The notes below the pieces were generated by a model. The model saw only the letters and a list, made by a program, of their open reading frames with translations. It searched no databases and was not told the origin of the DNA. Position numbers and translations under genes: made by a program. From positions 102,498 to 166,497 of the forward strand of contig PLSD01000028.1 in assembly GCA_003164135.1 (NCBI GenBank): a stretch of 64,000 bases of DNA. Reading direction: 5' to 3'. This DNA comes from Acetobacteraceae bacterium. GTDB taxonomy: Bacteria > Pseudomonadota > Alphaproteobacteria > Acetobacterales > Acetobacteraceae. Below are positions 29,551 through 44,242 of the stretch, one piece after another (positions within the stretch are counted from its first letter, which is position 1; each line of letters begins with the position of its first letter).

Positions 29551-30099
29551 ATGCCCCTGCCCGCCACCCCATTCTGGTTCCTCCGCCACGGCGAAACCGA
29601 CTACAACGCCGCCGGCCTCAGCCAGGGCGCGCTGGACATTTCACTGAACGCCACCGGCCGCGCCCAGGCGGAAGTCGCCGGGCCGCTGCTCGCCGGCCAA
29701 GGCATTACCGCCATCATCTCCTCTCCCATGATCCGCACCCGCGAGACCACCGAAATCATCAACGAATTCCTGCGCCTGCCGGTGAGCTTCGAGGCGGACC
29801 TGCGCGAGGTGATTTTTGGCGGCATGGAGGGCAAACCCCTGCAACCCTGGTTCCCCGAATGGATGGAAGGCCGCTTCACCCCCGAAGGAGCTGAGACCTT
29901 TGCCCAGCTCACCGTGCGCGCCCGCGGGGCCATGGGCCGCGTGCTCGCCCACCCCGGCCCGGTGCTGGTCGTCGCCCACGGCGGCATTTTCCGCGCCCTG
30001 CGCGACCTCATGGGCCTGACGAAAGAAGGTTTGACCCCCAACGCCGTGCCGCTGTTCTGTGAACCCACGGACGATGGCTGGAAAATTCGTACCCCTTAA
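29551..30099 (+). CDS. Histidine phosphatase family protein (phosphoglycerate-mutase-like)
   Basis: The 182-aa protein has the phosphohistidine motif FLRHGETDYNAAGLSQG near the N-terminus, then SPMIRTRETTEII, and the second catalytic His in VVAHGGIFRALRDLMG. The Glu general acid is in LREVIFGGMEGK. It is likely a small-molecule phosphatase rather than a glycolytic mutase, because it is shorter and sits away from glycolytic genes. It follows the GST gene directly and overlaps the convergent RidA-like gene by 4 bp. Confidence 0.9.
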   Translation: MPLPATPFWFLRHGETDYNAAGLSQGALDISLNATGRAQAEVAGPLLAGQGITAIISSPMIRTRETTEIINEFLRLPVSFEADLREVIFGGMEGKPLQPWFPEWMEGRFTPEGAETFAQLTVRARGAMGRVLAHPGPVLVVAHGGIFRALRDLMGLTKEGLTPNAVPLFCEPTDDGWKIRTP

Positions 30100-30590
30100 C
30101 GCGCGGCGACTGCCTCCAGCTCCACCAGCCAGCCCGGATTCACCAGCCCGACCACCTGCAACCGCGTGCGCGCCACCAGTTGTGGATTCTCCGCCGTACC
30201 AAAAAACTCCGCATAGGCGCGGGAAAACCCCTCGCTATCCATCCGCCCGCCGCAAGCCGCATCGCCCACCAGCAAGGCGCGCAACTGCACCAAATTACCA
30301 AACCCCAACCCCAGCGAGGCCAGCGACGCGCCCAATTCCCGCAACGCGCCAACCGTCTGTGTATACGTATCGCCAAACGCCGCCACGCTATCGGGGAGTG
30401 CCGCGACATTCATCACCGGCGGCGTATGCCCACTGAAAATCACCAGTTCCTTACCCGCCGGCACCGCCACCGCGCGCAGAAACGGCAGCGCCCCGCCCGC
30501 CTGCAACCGCGCATCGCCGGACTGCGGCCCCTGGCCATGCGCCGCCTCGGGAAATTTATACCGCGTCACGCCAGCCGGATCATTCGTCAT
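30096..30590 (-). CDS. RidA/YjgF family protein
   Basis: The ATG at 30590 gives 164 aa; the track start adds 72 residues with no family character. The chorismate-mutase-like fold is indicated by ELVIFSGHTPPVMN, the helix DTYTQTVGALRELGASLASLGLGFGNLVQLRALLVGD, and RTRLQVVGLVNPGWLVELEAVA, where the conserved Arg is usually the 2-iminoacid-binding residue. Canonical RidA proteins are about 130 aa, so this is a longer subgroup whose deaminase role is not certain. It diverges from the serpin gene across 96 bp. Confidence 0.82.
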   Translation of the reverse strand: MTNDPAGVTRYKFPEAAHGQGPQSGDARLQAGGALPFLRAVAVPAGKELVIFSGHTPPVMNVAALPDSVAAFGDTYTQTVGALRELGASLASLGLGFGNLVQLRALLVGDAACGGRMDSEGFSRAYAEFFGTAENPQLVARTRLQVVGLVNPGWLVELEAVAAR

Positions 30591-30686
30591 TGCACACCTC
30601 TTTCGGCGCACAAGGTAACCCGCGCCGTTGCGATTTGCCACCAGGCGCAAACTCCGCTTTGTTCCGCGCAACACCGGAGACACCAA

Positions 30687-31889
30687 ATGCGCAAACTCGC
30701 CACCCTGCTCGCTCTCTCCCTGCTTGCCGCCCCCGCGCATGCGCAGGATATAGCGCCGCCGCTGGTACAGGCGGAAAACGCTTTTGCCATCGACCTTTAC
30801 GGACAACTCCGCCAGCAGCCGGGCAATCTGTTCTTCTCACCCTCCAGCATCAGCACCGCGCTCAGCATGGTCTACGTCGGCGCCAAAGGCGGCACGGCGG
30901 CGGAAATCGCGCAGGTGCTGCATCTGCCGCCCAAATGGTCGCAGGCGGATTTTCTAAAAGCCGTGCCACAGCCGGTGACGTCCGCGCGAAGCGATGCGTT
31001 CCAACTCCACGCCGCCAACGCGCTCTGGGGCGCGCAAGGCTACAACTTCCACCACGCCTACATCGCCAGCATCAAAACCAATTTTGGCGGCGCGCTGTAC
31101 CCCACAAATTTCAACAACCCCGATGCCGCCGCGGGCAAAATCAACGCCTGGGTTTCCGATCAGACCCAAGGCAAAATCCCCAATCTGATAAGTCCCGGTG
31201 CCCTCACTCCGGCCACCCGCCTGGTCCTGACCAACGCCATTTATTTCAAGGCCGCCTGGAACCAGCCGTTCGATAAATCCGCGACGGATCAGCAAGCATT
31301 TCATCTGGCACCTGGCAACGACACCCCAGTGCGCATGATGCACATGACCTCCCGTTTCCCGCTTGCCCAAGCGGACGGCGCGCAAATCCTCACGCTGCCC
31401 TATCGCGGCGATGCCTCAATGGTGATCATCTTGCCCACGCACATCGATGGTCTCGCAGCGCTCGCAACAAGCCTGAGCACGGACGAACTCAACGACTGGT
31501 CCGCCAACAGCCCCCAGACACTGGTCGAGCTTTCCCTTCCCAAATTCACCAGCACCAGCAATTTCAACCTGAATGACGTGCTACAAAAACTGGGCATGAA
31601 AGACTCTTTCGCCCCCGGCACGGCGGATTTCTCCGGCATCGCCACCGACCCGGTGCATCCCCTCTATATCGGTGCAGTGATCCATAATGCGTATATCGGC
31701 GTCGACGAAAGCAAGACCGAAGCCGCGGCCGCCACGGGCATAATCATGGTCGCCACCGCGTCTGCTCCAGAGGCGCCAGTCACCCCCGTCCCCTTCACCG
31801 CCGACCACCCGTTCCTCTACCTCATCCGCGACAACGCTACCGGCGCCATCCTCTTCATGGGCCGTGTCGAAAATCCGTCAGAGCCGTAA
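30687..31889 (+). CDS. Secreted serpin (serine protease inhibitor)
   Basis: The ATG at 30687 opens a signal peptide (MRKLATLLALSLLAAPAHAQ) and gives 400 aa; the track ORF extends 169 codons upstream through antisense sequence. Serpin landmarks are NLFFSPSSISTALSMVYVGAKGGT, LTNAIYFKAAWNQPF, the hinge VDESKTEAAAATG, and the C-terminal FTADHPFLYLIRDNATGAILFMGRV. The small-residue hinge is of the inhibitory kind. Aligning with alpha-1-antitrypsin places P1 near the Thr of IIMVATAS, which would suit an elastase- or subtilisin-like target. Bacterial serpins are rare. It probably acts in the periplasm or outside the cell. Confidence 0.95.
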   Translation: MRKLATLLALSLLAAPAHAQDIAPPLVQAENAFAIDLYGQLRQQPGNLFFSPSSISTALSMVYVGAKGGTAAEIAQVLHLPPKWSQADFLKAVPQPVTSARSDAFQLHAANALWGAQGYNFHHAYIASIKTNFGGALYPTNFNNPDAAAGKINAWVSDQTQGKIPNLISPGALTPATRLVLTNAIYFKAAWNQPFDKSATDQQAFHLAPGNDTPVRMMHMTSRFPLAQADGAQILTLPYRGDASMVIILPTHIDGLAALATSLSTDELNDWSANSPQTLVELSLPKFTSTSNFNLNDVLQKLGMKDSFAPGTADFSGIATDPVHPLYIGAVIHNAYIGVDESKTEAAAATGIIMVATASAPEAPVTPVPFTADHPFLYLIRDNATGAILFMGRVENPSEP

Positions 31890-34020: not shown

Positions 34021-35451
34021 TTATTCATCTCGTGATTGTAATCGCTGCTCCATGCCCGCAAGTGTTTCAACCGCCGCGAGAAGGGCCCGCAGCGTCTGCG
34101 CTTCGCCGCCTTCCGGCCGGCCCGGGCGGCTGGAATCGTTCCACGCATATACATCCACATGCGCCCAGGCAATCCGTGCAGGAACAAAACGTTGCAGGAA
34201 CAGTGCCGCAACAATCGCACCGGCCATCGGCTTGGCAGAGACGGTGTTAAGGTCGGCAACCGGGCTGTCCAGCCACGCCGCATAGCCATCAAATAACGGC
34301 AGGCGCCAGAGTGGATCATTGGCCAATTGACCCGCCGCCAGAATTGTTTCCGCCAGTTGATCATTGTTACAGAACAACGCCGGCAGATCCGGCCCCAGCG
34401 CCGCGCGCGCCGCACCCGTCAACGTTGCAGCGTCTATCAACCAATCAGGTGATTCGCGCGCCGCCTCGGCAAGCAGATCACACAACACCAGCCGCCCTTC
34501 CGCGTCGGTATTGCCAACTTCAACGCTCAATCCAGCAACAGTTTGTAACACGTCGGACGGGCGCATGGCATGGCCCGAAACACTGTTCTCCACGCAGCCA
34601 ATGCGTAACTGCAACCGCAACGGCAAATCCAGCGCCATCACCGCCTGCGCAAGCCCCAACAAAATTGCAGCCCCGCCCATATCTTTTTTCATACGAAGCA
34701 TCGCCGAGCTGGGCTTGAGATCATAGCCGCCGGTGTCGAAACACACGCCCTTGCCGCAGAGCGAGAGCAGCGGGGCGTGCGCGTCTGTCTGTGATCCTTG
34801 CCATGTCAGCACTACTGTCTCAGCGCCACGGTCCGAGCCCGCTCCCACCGCCGCCAGTGCTGGATAGCGCGTAGCCAGCGCCTCCCCCCGCACCCGCACC
34901 GCCTGCGCGCCAAACCGTTCGCCAACCGCCAGCACCGCCTGCGCCAACTCGGCCGGTCCCAATAGGTTAGCCGGTGTGTTGATCAAGTCCCGCGCCAGGC
35001 AAACCGCCTGCGCAATCACCCGCACCCGCAACGGAACCTGGCCAGGTGTTAGTTGCGCCGGCAATTTTTTGTTCTGGGTTTTTAGCTGGTCGAACCGGTA
35101 GGCCCCCAGCAGAAAACCAAGTGCGGCCTCTTCGGCGGCAAACTCCCCCGGCTCAATCCGCCACACCTTGCCGCTGGGTAACGCCCCCGCCGCCGCGCCA
35201 AAACCATGCAGCGCAGGCCCCGTGCCCAAGCCGAGCAAAGCCGCTTGCAATCCCTCGCTACCGGGCAGCAGCACAACCGCACCCGCCTGCGCGGTAAAGC
35301 CTTGCACCCGGACAATAGCGGCGTGCGCAGGGTCAAGCCGCGCTAACAAACCGGCCACTCCGTCCGGCCTTACGCCATAAAGCGGCAGCGCCGCCTTGCC
35401 ATCCACAGCTAGCCCCGCCAGTTCCTGCTCCATGCCCGACTCCATCTTCAT
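34021..35451 (-). CDS. M17 leucyl aminopeptidase family protein
   Basis: The 476-aa cytosolic metallopeptidase releases N-terminal residues. The two-metal centre is visible in the C-terminal half: GKGVCFDTGGYDLKPSSAMLRMKKDMGGAA supplies the Lys/Asp set, and NTDAEGRLVLCDLL supplies the conserved Asp, Glu and Arg. PADLNTVSAKPMAGAIVAALFLQRFV lies near the end. The N-terminal domain is diverged, as in the PepB-like subgroup. The start may be MKM at 35451 or MEQ six residues later. Confidence 0.93.
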   Translation of the reverse strand: MKMESGMEQELAGLAVDGKAALPLYGVRPDGVAGLLARLDPAHAAIVRVQGFTAQAGAVVLLPGSEGLQAALLGLGTGPALHGFGAAAGALPSGKVWRIEPGEFAAEEAALGFLLGAYRFDQLKTQNKKLPAQLTPGQVPLRVRVIAQAVCLARDLINTPANLLGPAELAQAVLAVGERFGAQAVRVRGEALATRYPALAAVGAGSDRGAETVVLTWQGSQTDAHAPLLSLCGKGVCFDTGGYDLKPSSAMLRMKKDMGGAAILLGLAQAVMALDLPLRLQLRIGCVENSVSGHAMRPSDVLQTVAGLSVEVGNTDAEGRLVLCDLLAEAARESPDWLIDAATLTGAARAALGPDLPALFCNNDQLAETILAAGQLANDPLWRLPLFDGYAAWLDSPVADLNTVSAKPMAGAIVAALFLQRFVPARIAWAHVDVYAWNDSSRPGRPEGGEAQTLRALLAAVETLAGMEQRLQSRDE

Positions 35452-42082: not shown

Positions 42083-44242
42083 CTAAAAATTCAACGAATG
42101 TGATGTCTCTTTTAGTTCCGTCCTTGCTAAAGATAGATGTTTAAAAATCTCATTGGCCAGTTCGGCGTAGACATGACGAGCAAAATGTGGCCCACCAAAG
42201 TGGCCGTCATTTGCCAGGTCACCCTCGTTATGAATGAATTTAGTAACCTCAATATAAGCGAAGCCATACTCGTCAACGAGCGGTTTCACAATCCGGTTCA
42301 CTTTGTCAAAGAAATCTAAAATATACGTGTCACGGCCGACGCTATCATTAAGTCCGATAATGATGACTGGCTTACCGTGGCTTTTCAGAAGCGTGAACAT
42401 ATCATGTACGTCACTCATGAAAAGCGCAGGATTAAAACCGCCTATGGAGTCGAATTCAGCGGCAATGTATGCCCATTGTTCGCGGCTGGTGCCTGCGCTG
42501 ACGATCTTGCTCACCTCATCATACGGCATTTTTGTATAGTCTGGTTTTGCATCAGCATGAGCCCAAGGATTCACGTTAGCATGTCGTAACGGCAATATCA
42601 TGCCCGTTGTTTTAGAACGAAAATAGCCACTAAATGACTCCTGAGAAAGAGAAATGACGTAGGCGTCGGCCGTACCGTTGATAACGTCAGAATCAAATCG
42701 TGTTGTCGGCATGCCAGGTAGATGTTTGATGATCTCCTGATTTTCAGGCGTCTTTATTTCATCGCGTAGCGCGATGATGCGTGGTAGGGAACATATCTCC
42801 CAGCCGTGATAAGCATAGTTGAATTCTTCGATGGTTTTAACCTTTGTACGCAGATATTGCGATGTTACCATCAAGTCGCAGGCTCCTCGGATGCATACGG
42901 TGAGCATCTCATCGCTTGGCACTGCGGCATTATTTTCGTCGGCATCATCAACTACCCTTATCCAGTCGACGTCCATATCGAGATCTGAAACAATAGGCCC
43001 TTTGATGTTCAGACTTGGCCGGCCAATTGTTTTCCAGGCAAATTGCTCAACACCCATATTCAGGGCGCGGCAGGAAAACAGGAAATGCCTAAGATTATCT
43101 TCGTCCCGGCGCCCCGCTATATAGCCGCAAATGCCATAATTTCCAAAGCGATCTGAAACTTTTATGTACTGGGCAAAGGCACCAAAGCGGTTGATTTCTT
43201 TCTGAAATTGAGTTTTTGCTTCCTCAGTATCCTCAGGCCAGCGGTTTTTTGTGAAATTAAGCTGATTGGTGCGGTTAACGAGATCGTGGATACGGGGAAA
43301 CTCATCTTCGATGTCATCGTGAAAACTAATGCGAATGTCACTATTGCGCAAAAATTCCTCGTTATCACCGTTTGCGGCAGATTTCTCGGAGAGCTTTGCC
43401 TCCAGTATCTTGTACCGAGCGAGGCGAGATTTCTTCAGATCAGGCTTGCCGGTAAATTTTGGGTCATCCAACAACGTCGGTAGAATGTCCGGTTCTGCCG
43501 TTTTAAGTTTTGGAACGTAATGCAATGCCTCGTTCAGGTTTAATTTGTTGTCATCGATGAATAAAATAGTTTCTGGGCGTAGCTGGGCGTTTTTGATGAT
43601 ATTTTTGATCATCGCGCCTTTTGGTGAAAATGAAATTTCCGGAAAAACAAAGCTGTCCCAAATCCCAAGTTCAACTAAAGCTTGCTTGGCTTCCTCAAAA
43701 TGATTCTTCGAGCAAATTGCGTTAACAATGCCGCGACTATTTAGCGTTTCGATCATATCTATATTGGATTGGATTGGCGTAATGCCGCCTTCAGTCAAAG
43801 TACCGTTCCAAAAAGTTTCATCCAAATCCCAGATGACAAGGCGGATTCCCTCTTCCTCACCCCCCTCAGCAGCACCTTCAGCAGCACCTTCAGCAGAGAG
43901 ATCAATTTCGTCAACCTGAAGTTTAGTTTCTGCGCGGTACTCGGTCAGAGAAAACCACCAGTCAGGAACATCAACATTCCGCCCAATCAAGGCCAAGCGA
44001 TCGTCAACCTGGATTACGGTATCGAAAAGCCAAAATGGTTGAGCTTTATCATTAAAAATGCGTAGCTTACCCTCTCTAAAAGACCAAGTATGCTCGTGCT
44101 CCGTCCTATAAACTTTTATATTTCCATCGGCACCAAAGTATAATGATTTGCTGAATATTTTCCCTGTGGAGTCTGCCCAAACCCACCTGGAATTCAGAAG
44201 CTTCTCTACGGTAAGAAGCTCATTTGTCGCTTTTATCTGCAT
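42083..44242 (-). CDS. FkbH-like HAD-family protein with extra N-terminal beta domain (low GC)
   Basis: The 719-aa protein is a paralogue of the one at 420-2198, with the same order of regions. HAD (about 130-290) has DLDETFWNGTLTEGG, CSKNHFEEA and LFIDDNKLNLNEAL; the GNAT-like part has VNRTNQLNFTKNRWPED; the SGNH-like C-terminus has IIIGLNDS and DGHFGGPHFARHVY. A further 110-residue N-terminal domain (WVWADSTGKIFSKSLYFG, HTWSFREGKLRIF) is beta-rich and unlike the other copy. The linker has short Ala/Glu/Gly repeats (AEGAAEGAAEGG). Codon use is visibly AT-richer than all neighbours, which suggests transfer. It may modify a surface glycan. Confidence 0.82.
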   Translation of the reverse strand: MQIKATNELLTVEKLLNSRWVWADSTGKIFSKSLYFGADGNIKVYRTEHEHTWSFREGKLRIFNDKAQPFWLFDTVIQVDDRLALIGRNVDVPDWWFSLTEYRAETKLQVDEIDLSAEGAAEGAAEGGEEEGIRLVIWDLDETFWNGTLTEGGITPIQSNIDMIETLNSRGIVNAICSKNHFEEAKQALVELGIWDSFVFPEISFSPKGAMIKNIIKNAQLRPETILFIDDNKLNLNEALHYVPKLKTAEPDILPTLLDDPKFTGKPDLKKSRLARYKILEAKLSEKSAANGDNEEFLRNSDIRISFHDDIEDEFPRIHDLVNRTNQLNFTKNRWPEDTEEAKTQFQKEINRFGAFAQYIKVSDRFGNYGICGYIAGRRDEDNLRHFLFSCRALNMGVEQFAWKTIGRPSLNIKGPIVSDLDMDVDWIRVVDDADENNAAVPSDEMLTVCIRGACDLMVTSQYLRTKVKTIEEFNYAYHGWEICSLPRIIALRDEIKTPENQEIIKHLPGMPTTRFDSDVINGTADAYVISLSQESFSGYFRSKTTGMILPLRHANVNPWAHADAKPDYTKMPYDEVSKIVSAGTSREQWAYIAAEFDSIGGFNPALFMSDVHDMFTLLKSHGKPVIIIGLNDSVGRDTYILDFFDKVNRIVKPLVDEYGFAYIEVTKFIHNEGDLANDGHFGGPHFARHVYAELANEIFKHLSLARTELKETSHSLNF

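Follow-up and report, generated by a model that had tools for sequence, protein, structure and literature searches.

Exported serpins are already known in bacteria. The siropins of Eubacterium siraeum, miropin of Tannerella forsythia, and the serpin of Bifidobacterium longum act against proteases that the cells encounter in their surroundings (PMC5127057, PMC6718151, PMC8233489), the siropins being inhibitors of neutrophil elastase and proteinase 3 (PMC5127057). Chloropin of Chlorobium limicola is inhibitory by experiment, with thrombin and KLK7 as targets (PMC10090351). The physiological role of prokaryotic serpins has been described as enigmatic (PMC8233489). The protein studied here, encoded in a 64,000-nucleotide stretch of an Acetobacteraceae genome (the window), is a fairly ordinary new member of this group. 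Siropins, miropin, and the B. longum serpin come from host-associated bacteria, whereas the genus of the window is represented by metagenome-assembled genomes. We infer, with a probability of roughly 0.8, that the protein is an exported suicide-substrate inhibitor whose natural targets are most likely proteases of other organisms; its secretion, inhibitory action, cleavage site, and target source are all predicted.

The gene is one intact open reading frame (ORF), running from an ATG to a TAA and encoding the only serpin of its genome (Table 1). The match of this ORF to Pfam family PF00079 is far beyond chance (E value of 7e-114; cutoff, 27 bits) and covers the complete domain of ~370 residues that characterizes the serpin superfamily (PF00079, MEROPS I4). 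The signal peptide reads as a typical Sec type ending in AHA-Q, and the homologues in the genus likewise have exported N termini. The earlier note had described a bacterial serpin with a signal peptide and a C-terminal ADHPF block, and each of these elements was recovered. NCBIfam contains no model matching the protein, and Rfam gave no match anywhere in the window. The serpin of one relative (G015; L008:156-1415, minus strand) has a lipobox-like N terminus (LASC) that suggests a lipoprotein, unlike the AxA-type signal peptide of the window protein.

Table 1. Features of the serpin gene, in window coordinates
Feature	Position	Strand	Basis or remark
Serpin gene, 400 aa, predicted to be exported	30687..31889	+	PF00079, 381.2 bits, profile positions 2-370 of 370
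Predicted Sec signal peptide, MRKLATLLALSLLAAPAHA	30687..30743	+	Cleavage before Q20, AxA motif; sequence reading
Hinge P17-P8, ESKTEAAAAT, residues 341-350	31707..31736	+	P15 is Lys, not Gly; alignments
Exposed reactive loop, GIIMVATASAPEAPVTP, residues 351-367 (P7 to P10'); P' side extended, rich in Ala and Pro	31737..31787	+	Residues 349-360 of low confidence in model; loop lengths
Putative P1-P1' bond, Thr357-Ala358	31755..31760	+	Counted from P14 as in chloropin
C-terminal ADHPF block, residues 372-376	31800..31814	+	Alignment

An AlphaFold2 model built with 53 homologues has a mean pLDDT of 90.6, and the core of the reactive loop (residues 349-360) is the sole stretch below 50. The loop is not inserted in this model, which contains no fully inserted s4A strand, although such a prediction says little about metastability. 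All of the matches listed in a Foldseek comparison with the PDB were serpins, with TM scores reaching 0.84 (query) and 0.91 (target). Chloropin (8gxv) heads the PDB matches by sequence, with 263.6 bits, and ranks among the top by fold. Because the full PF00079 match, signal peptide, hinge, ADHPF block, chloropin match, structural model, and Foldseek serpin matches all point the same way, the identity of the protein as a serpin is secure. The alignment also shows that the shutter and breach positions Ser51, Ser54, Asn183, Trp191, Lys286, His333, and Glu341 are retained; we take their equivalents in alpha-1-antitrypsin to be Ser53, Ser56, Asn186, Trp194, Lys290, His334, and Glu342.

The hinge agrees with the inhibitory consensus that we used (Glu at P17, Gly at P15, Thr or Ser at P14, Glu at P13, Ala, Gly, or Ser at P12-P9, and Thr at P8) at every listed position except P15, where Lys343 replaces a Gly found in at least 90% of the 53 homologues. 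The earlier note had claimed an inhibitory hinge; its TEAAAAT motif is indeed present (residues 344-350), but the hinge is not fully canonical, and the departure at P15 had been missed. The sister proteins in G016 and G006 have His and Ala at this position, respectively, and TEAA at P14-P11 is invariant in all 12 homologues of the genus. Since P15 is expected to face solvent in cleaved serpins, Lys may be tolerated there.

Counting from P14 (Thr344) places P1 at Thr357 and P1' at Ala358, as anticipated by the earlier suggestion of a P1 near the Thr of MVATAS. This register is sound, as the identical count in the aligned chloropin recovers the Arg that its authors reported as P1 (PMC10090351). 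Chloropin resembles the window protein as a bacterial serpin in fold and hinge, with its inhibition established experimentally, whereas it has Arg rather than a putative Thr at P1 and a loop that is three residues shorter on the P' side. The P1 residue is Ala in 7, Thr in 4, and Ser in 1 of the 12 genus serpins. Thr occupies P1 in 37 of 75 other bacterial homologues, and in 64 of them P1' is one of Ala, Ser, and Thr, so a small-residue reactive site is the norm in these related bacterial serpins and no peculiarity of this one. The one unusual feature of the loop, as judged from the alignments, is a longer P' side that is common to the genus. Measured from P14 up to the residue preceding the DHPF block, the genus serpins span a mean of 29.9 residues and the other homologues 25.7 (Mann-Whitney P = 6e-7, for related sequences that are not independent and a comparison set picked by similarity). 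With P1 held fixed, the additional residues, which are Ala/Pro-rich, fall on the P' side.

The gene occurs in 12 of 37 genomes of the genus and in 3 of 150 genomes drawn from the order, one of which (G128) belongs to another genus of the same family. It was matched by a profile search of genome contigs, whereas a single-protein query of the contigs gave no match. In a tree of 90 sequences, the 12 genus serpins, that of G128, and one from Rhodanobacteraceae bacterium ZG21-1 form a 14-member clade (SH-aLRT, 99). The Rhodanobacteraceae serpin (L018) and that of the other genus of the same family (L014) are ~44-45% identical to the window protein, and their loops differ. There are at least three kinds of serpin neighborhood, one in the window and G016, one in G006, G010, G018, and G032, and one in G007 and G021. 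Four close relatives of the window genome (G009, G023, G002, and G011) have a clean empty site here, where the phosphatase gene on one side almost meets the exonuclease gene on the other. Given a species tree built from six genes, at least two changes are needed to explain why the window genome and G016 have the serpin at this site, so that it was lost, or gained independently, among closely related species. As the patchy distribution shows, most relatives can do without the gene, which counts against the inhibitor reading.

At the locus itself, the last 12 bases of the serpin gene (31878-31889) are shared with the 3' end of the convergent exonuclease (xthA-like) gene. A minus-strand ORF (30096-30806) overlaps the serpin start, but its RidA-like (Ribonuc_L-PSP) protein more probably begins at a Met near 30590 by our reading of the sequence, which leaves a gap between this divergent gene (30096-30590) and the serpin. 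No RidA-like gene was found at this position in G016 or the relatives with the empty site, and it may have been gained or lost together with the serpin segment. Contamination of the metagenome-assembled genome was considered as a source of the serpin gene and rejected: the gene lies in a conserved block whose neighbors are 76 to 98% identical to those of G016, where the serpin occupies the same site.

Against this background of 12 neighbors, the two serpins are only 64% identical, with dN of 0.29, dS of 0.86, and dN/dS of 0.34, the highest ratio in the comparison. The serpin therefore evolves faster than its neighbors while under purifying selection. Hypervariability of the reactive loop, which might have pointed to an arms race, was also considered and set aside, as in five pairs the loop was about as diverged as the scaffold, not clearly faster, and dN/dS was below 1.

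The predicted fold, hinge, shutter and breach residues, and conservation in related species give good support to the reading of the protein as an exported serpin of the inhibitory type, whereas Lys at P15 in place of the consensus Gly counts against it. Following Sec export, a metastable serpin would reside in the periplasm or the extracellular space. There, a serine (or possibly cysteine) protease with a small-residue S1 preference would attack the exposed loop and cut it around Val355-Ser359. The hinge would then insert into beta-sheet A, and the protease, still acyl-linked, would be carried to the opposite pole and inactivated. Proteases of other organisms, such as soil bacteria, predators, and protists, would most likely be the natural targets.

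It is harder to say which proteases these might be. The earlier proposal of an elastase- or subtilisin-like target is plausible but weakly specified, as P1 Thr with P1' Ala or Ser is the commonest arrangement in related bacterial serpins. Siropin cleavage occurs at P3-P2 or P6-P5 instead of the aligned P1, and subtilisin escapes inhibition by these proteins (PMC5127057). For this reason, target prediction from the aligned P1 is weak, and a small P1 does not fix the target, which also counts against the inhibitor reading. A search of the genome family by family gave no match to S8 or to S53 (activation domain). S1 (Trypsin/Trypsin_2) matches occur at four places, none near the serpin. Two are closest to the HtrA/Do family (by NCBIfam, from partial translations), and a third reads as HtrA-like. 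The fourth (L118, on G000:C73) is trypsin-like, and the C terminus of a neighboring ORF looks verrucomicrobial. The L118 protein may be contamination, as would fit the 5.4% contamination estimate for the genome. The statement that no partner protease is encoded nearby holds for endopeptidases: an M17 aminopeptidase (34021-35451), 2 kb from the serpin, is the sole peptidase among the ORFs scanned across the 64 kb. Self-encoded secreted proteases, once put forward as test targets, thus offer few candidates. With no S8 or S53 match, and S1 matches that are mostly HtrA type and distant from the gene, a foreign target is more likely than a self-encoded one, a preference that depends on absence of the families searched. 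Protection against predators or neighbors, as previously suggested, is consistent with these sequence data. The idea that serpin presence tracks self-encoded S8 or S53 proteases is suggestive at most: among 25 genus genomes searched, S8 matches occur in 5 of 11 with the serpin and 2 of 14 without it, and the window genome has none.

Two other functions deserve consideration. The serpin could serve in housekeeping, by controlling a periplasmic HtrA/Deg protease or an unrecognized protease of its own cell. The genome has S1 matches, at least two of them in the HtrA/Do family, whose compartment the serpin would share by virtue of its signal peptide, and Clostridium thermocellum serpins have been proposed to regulate the subtilisin of their own cell (reviewed in PMC6718151). 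We consider this role unlikely, as absence of the serpin from most close relatives is a poor fit with regulation of a conserved protease, no protease gene is linked to it, and neither S8 nor S53 was matched in the genome. The protein might instead be noninhibitory, acting as a substrate or in binding or as a chaperone, as could be argued from Lys at P15 (and His in the G016 sister) in place of Gly, the lengthened P' side, and the fast evolution. Noninhibitory serpins known so far usually lose hinge residues, whereas here the hinge keeps Thr at P14, Glu at P13, Ala at P12-P9, and Thr at P8, and the shutter and breach residues are conserved; we regard this possibility as very improbable.

Beyond the reading as an exported inhibitor of foreign proteases, we tentatively raise a broader idea, itself rather doubtful. 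A proteobacterial serpin lineage, with conserved Met at P4, Ala, Thr, or Ser at P1, mostly Ala at P3', and a long Pro-rich P' segment, may have specialized against small-P1 proteases of soil predators or competitors, its gene being acquired and lost as cargo that defends against attack. Close species that have the serpin or cleanly lack it constitute paired genomes for testing protection from foreign proteases.

Elsewhere in the window, a 719-amino-acid ORF (42083-44242, minus strand) has a third-position GC of 0.46, versus ~0.75 in its neighbors, and only subthreshold HAD-like Pfam matches; it may be foreign. The presence of GcrA and MipZ genes in the window marks the genome as alphaproteobacterial in type.
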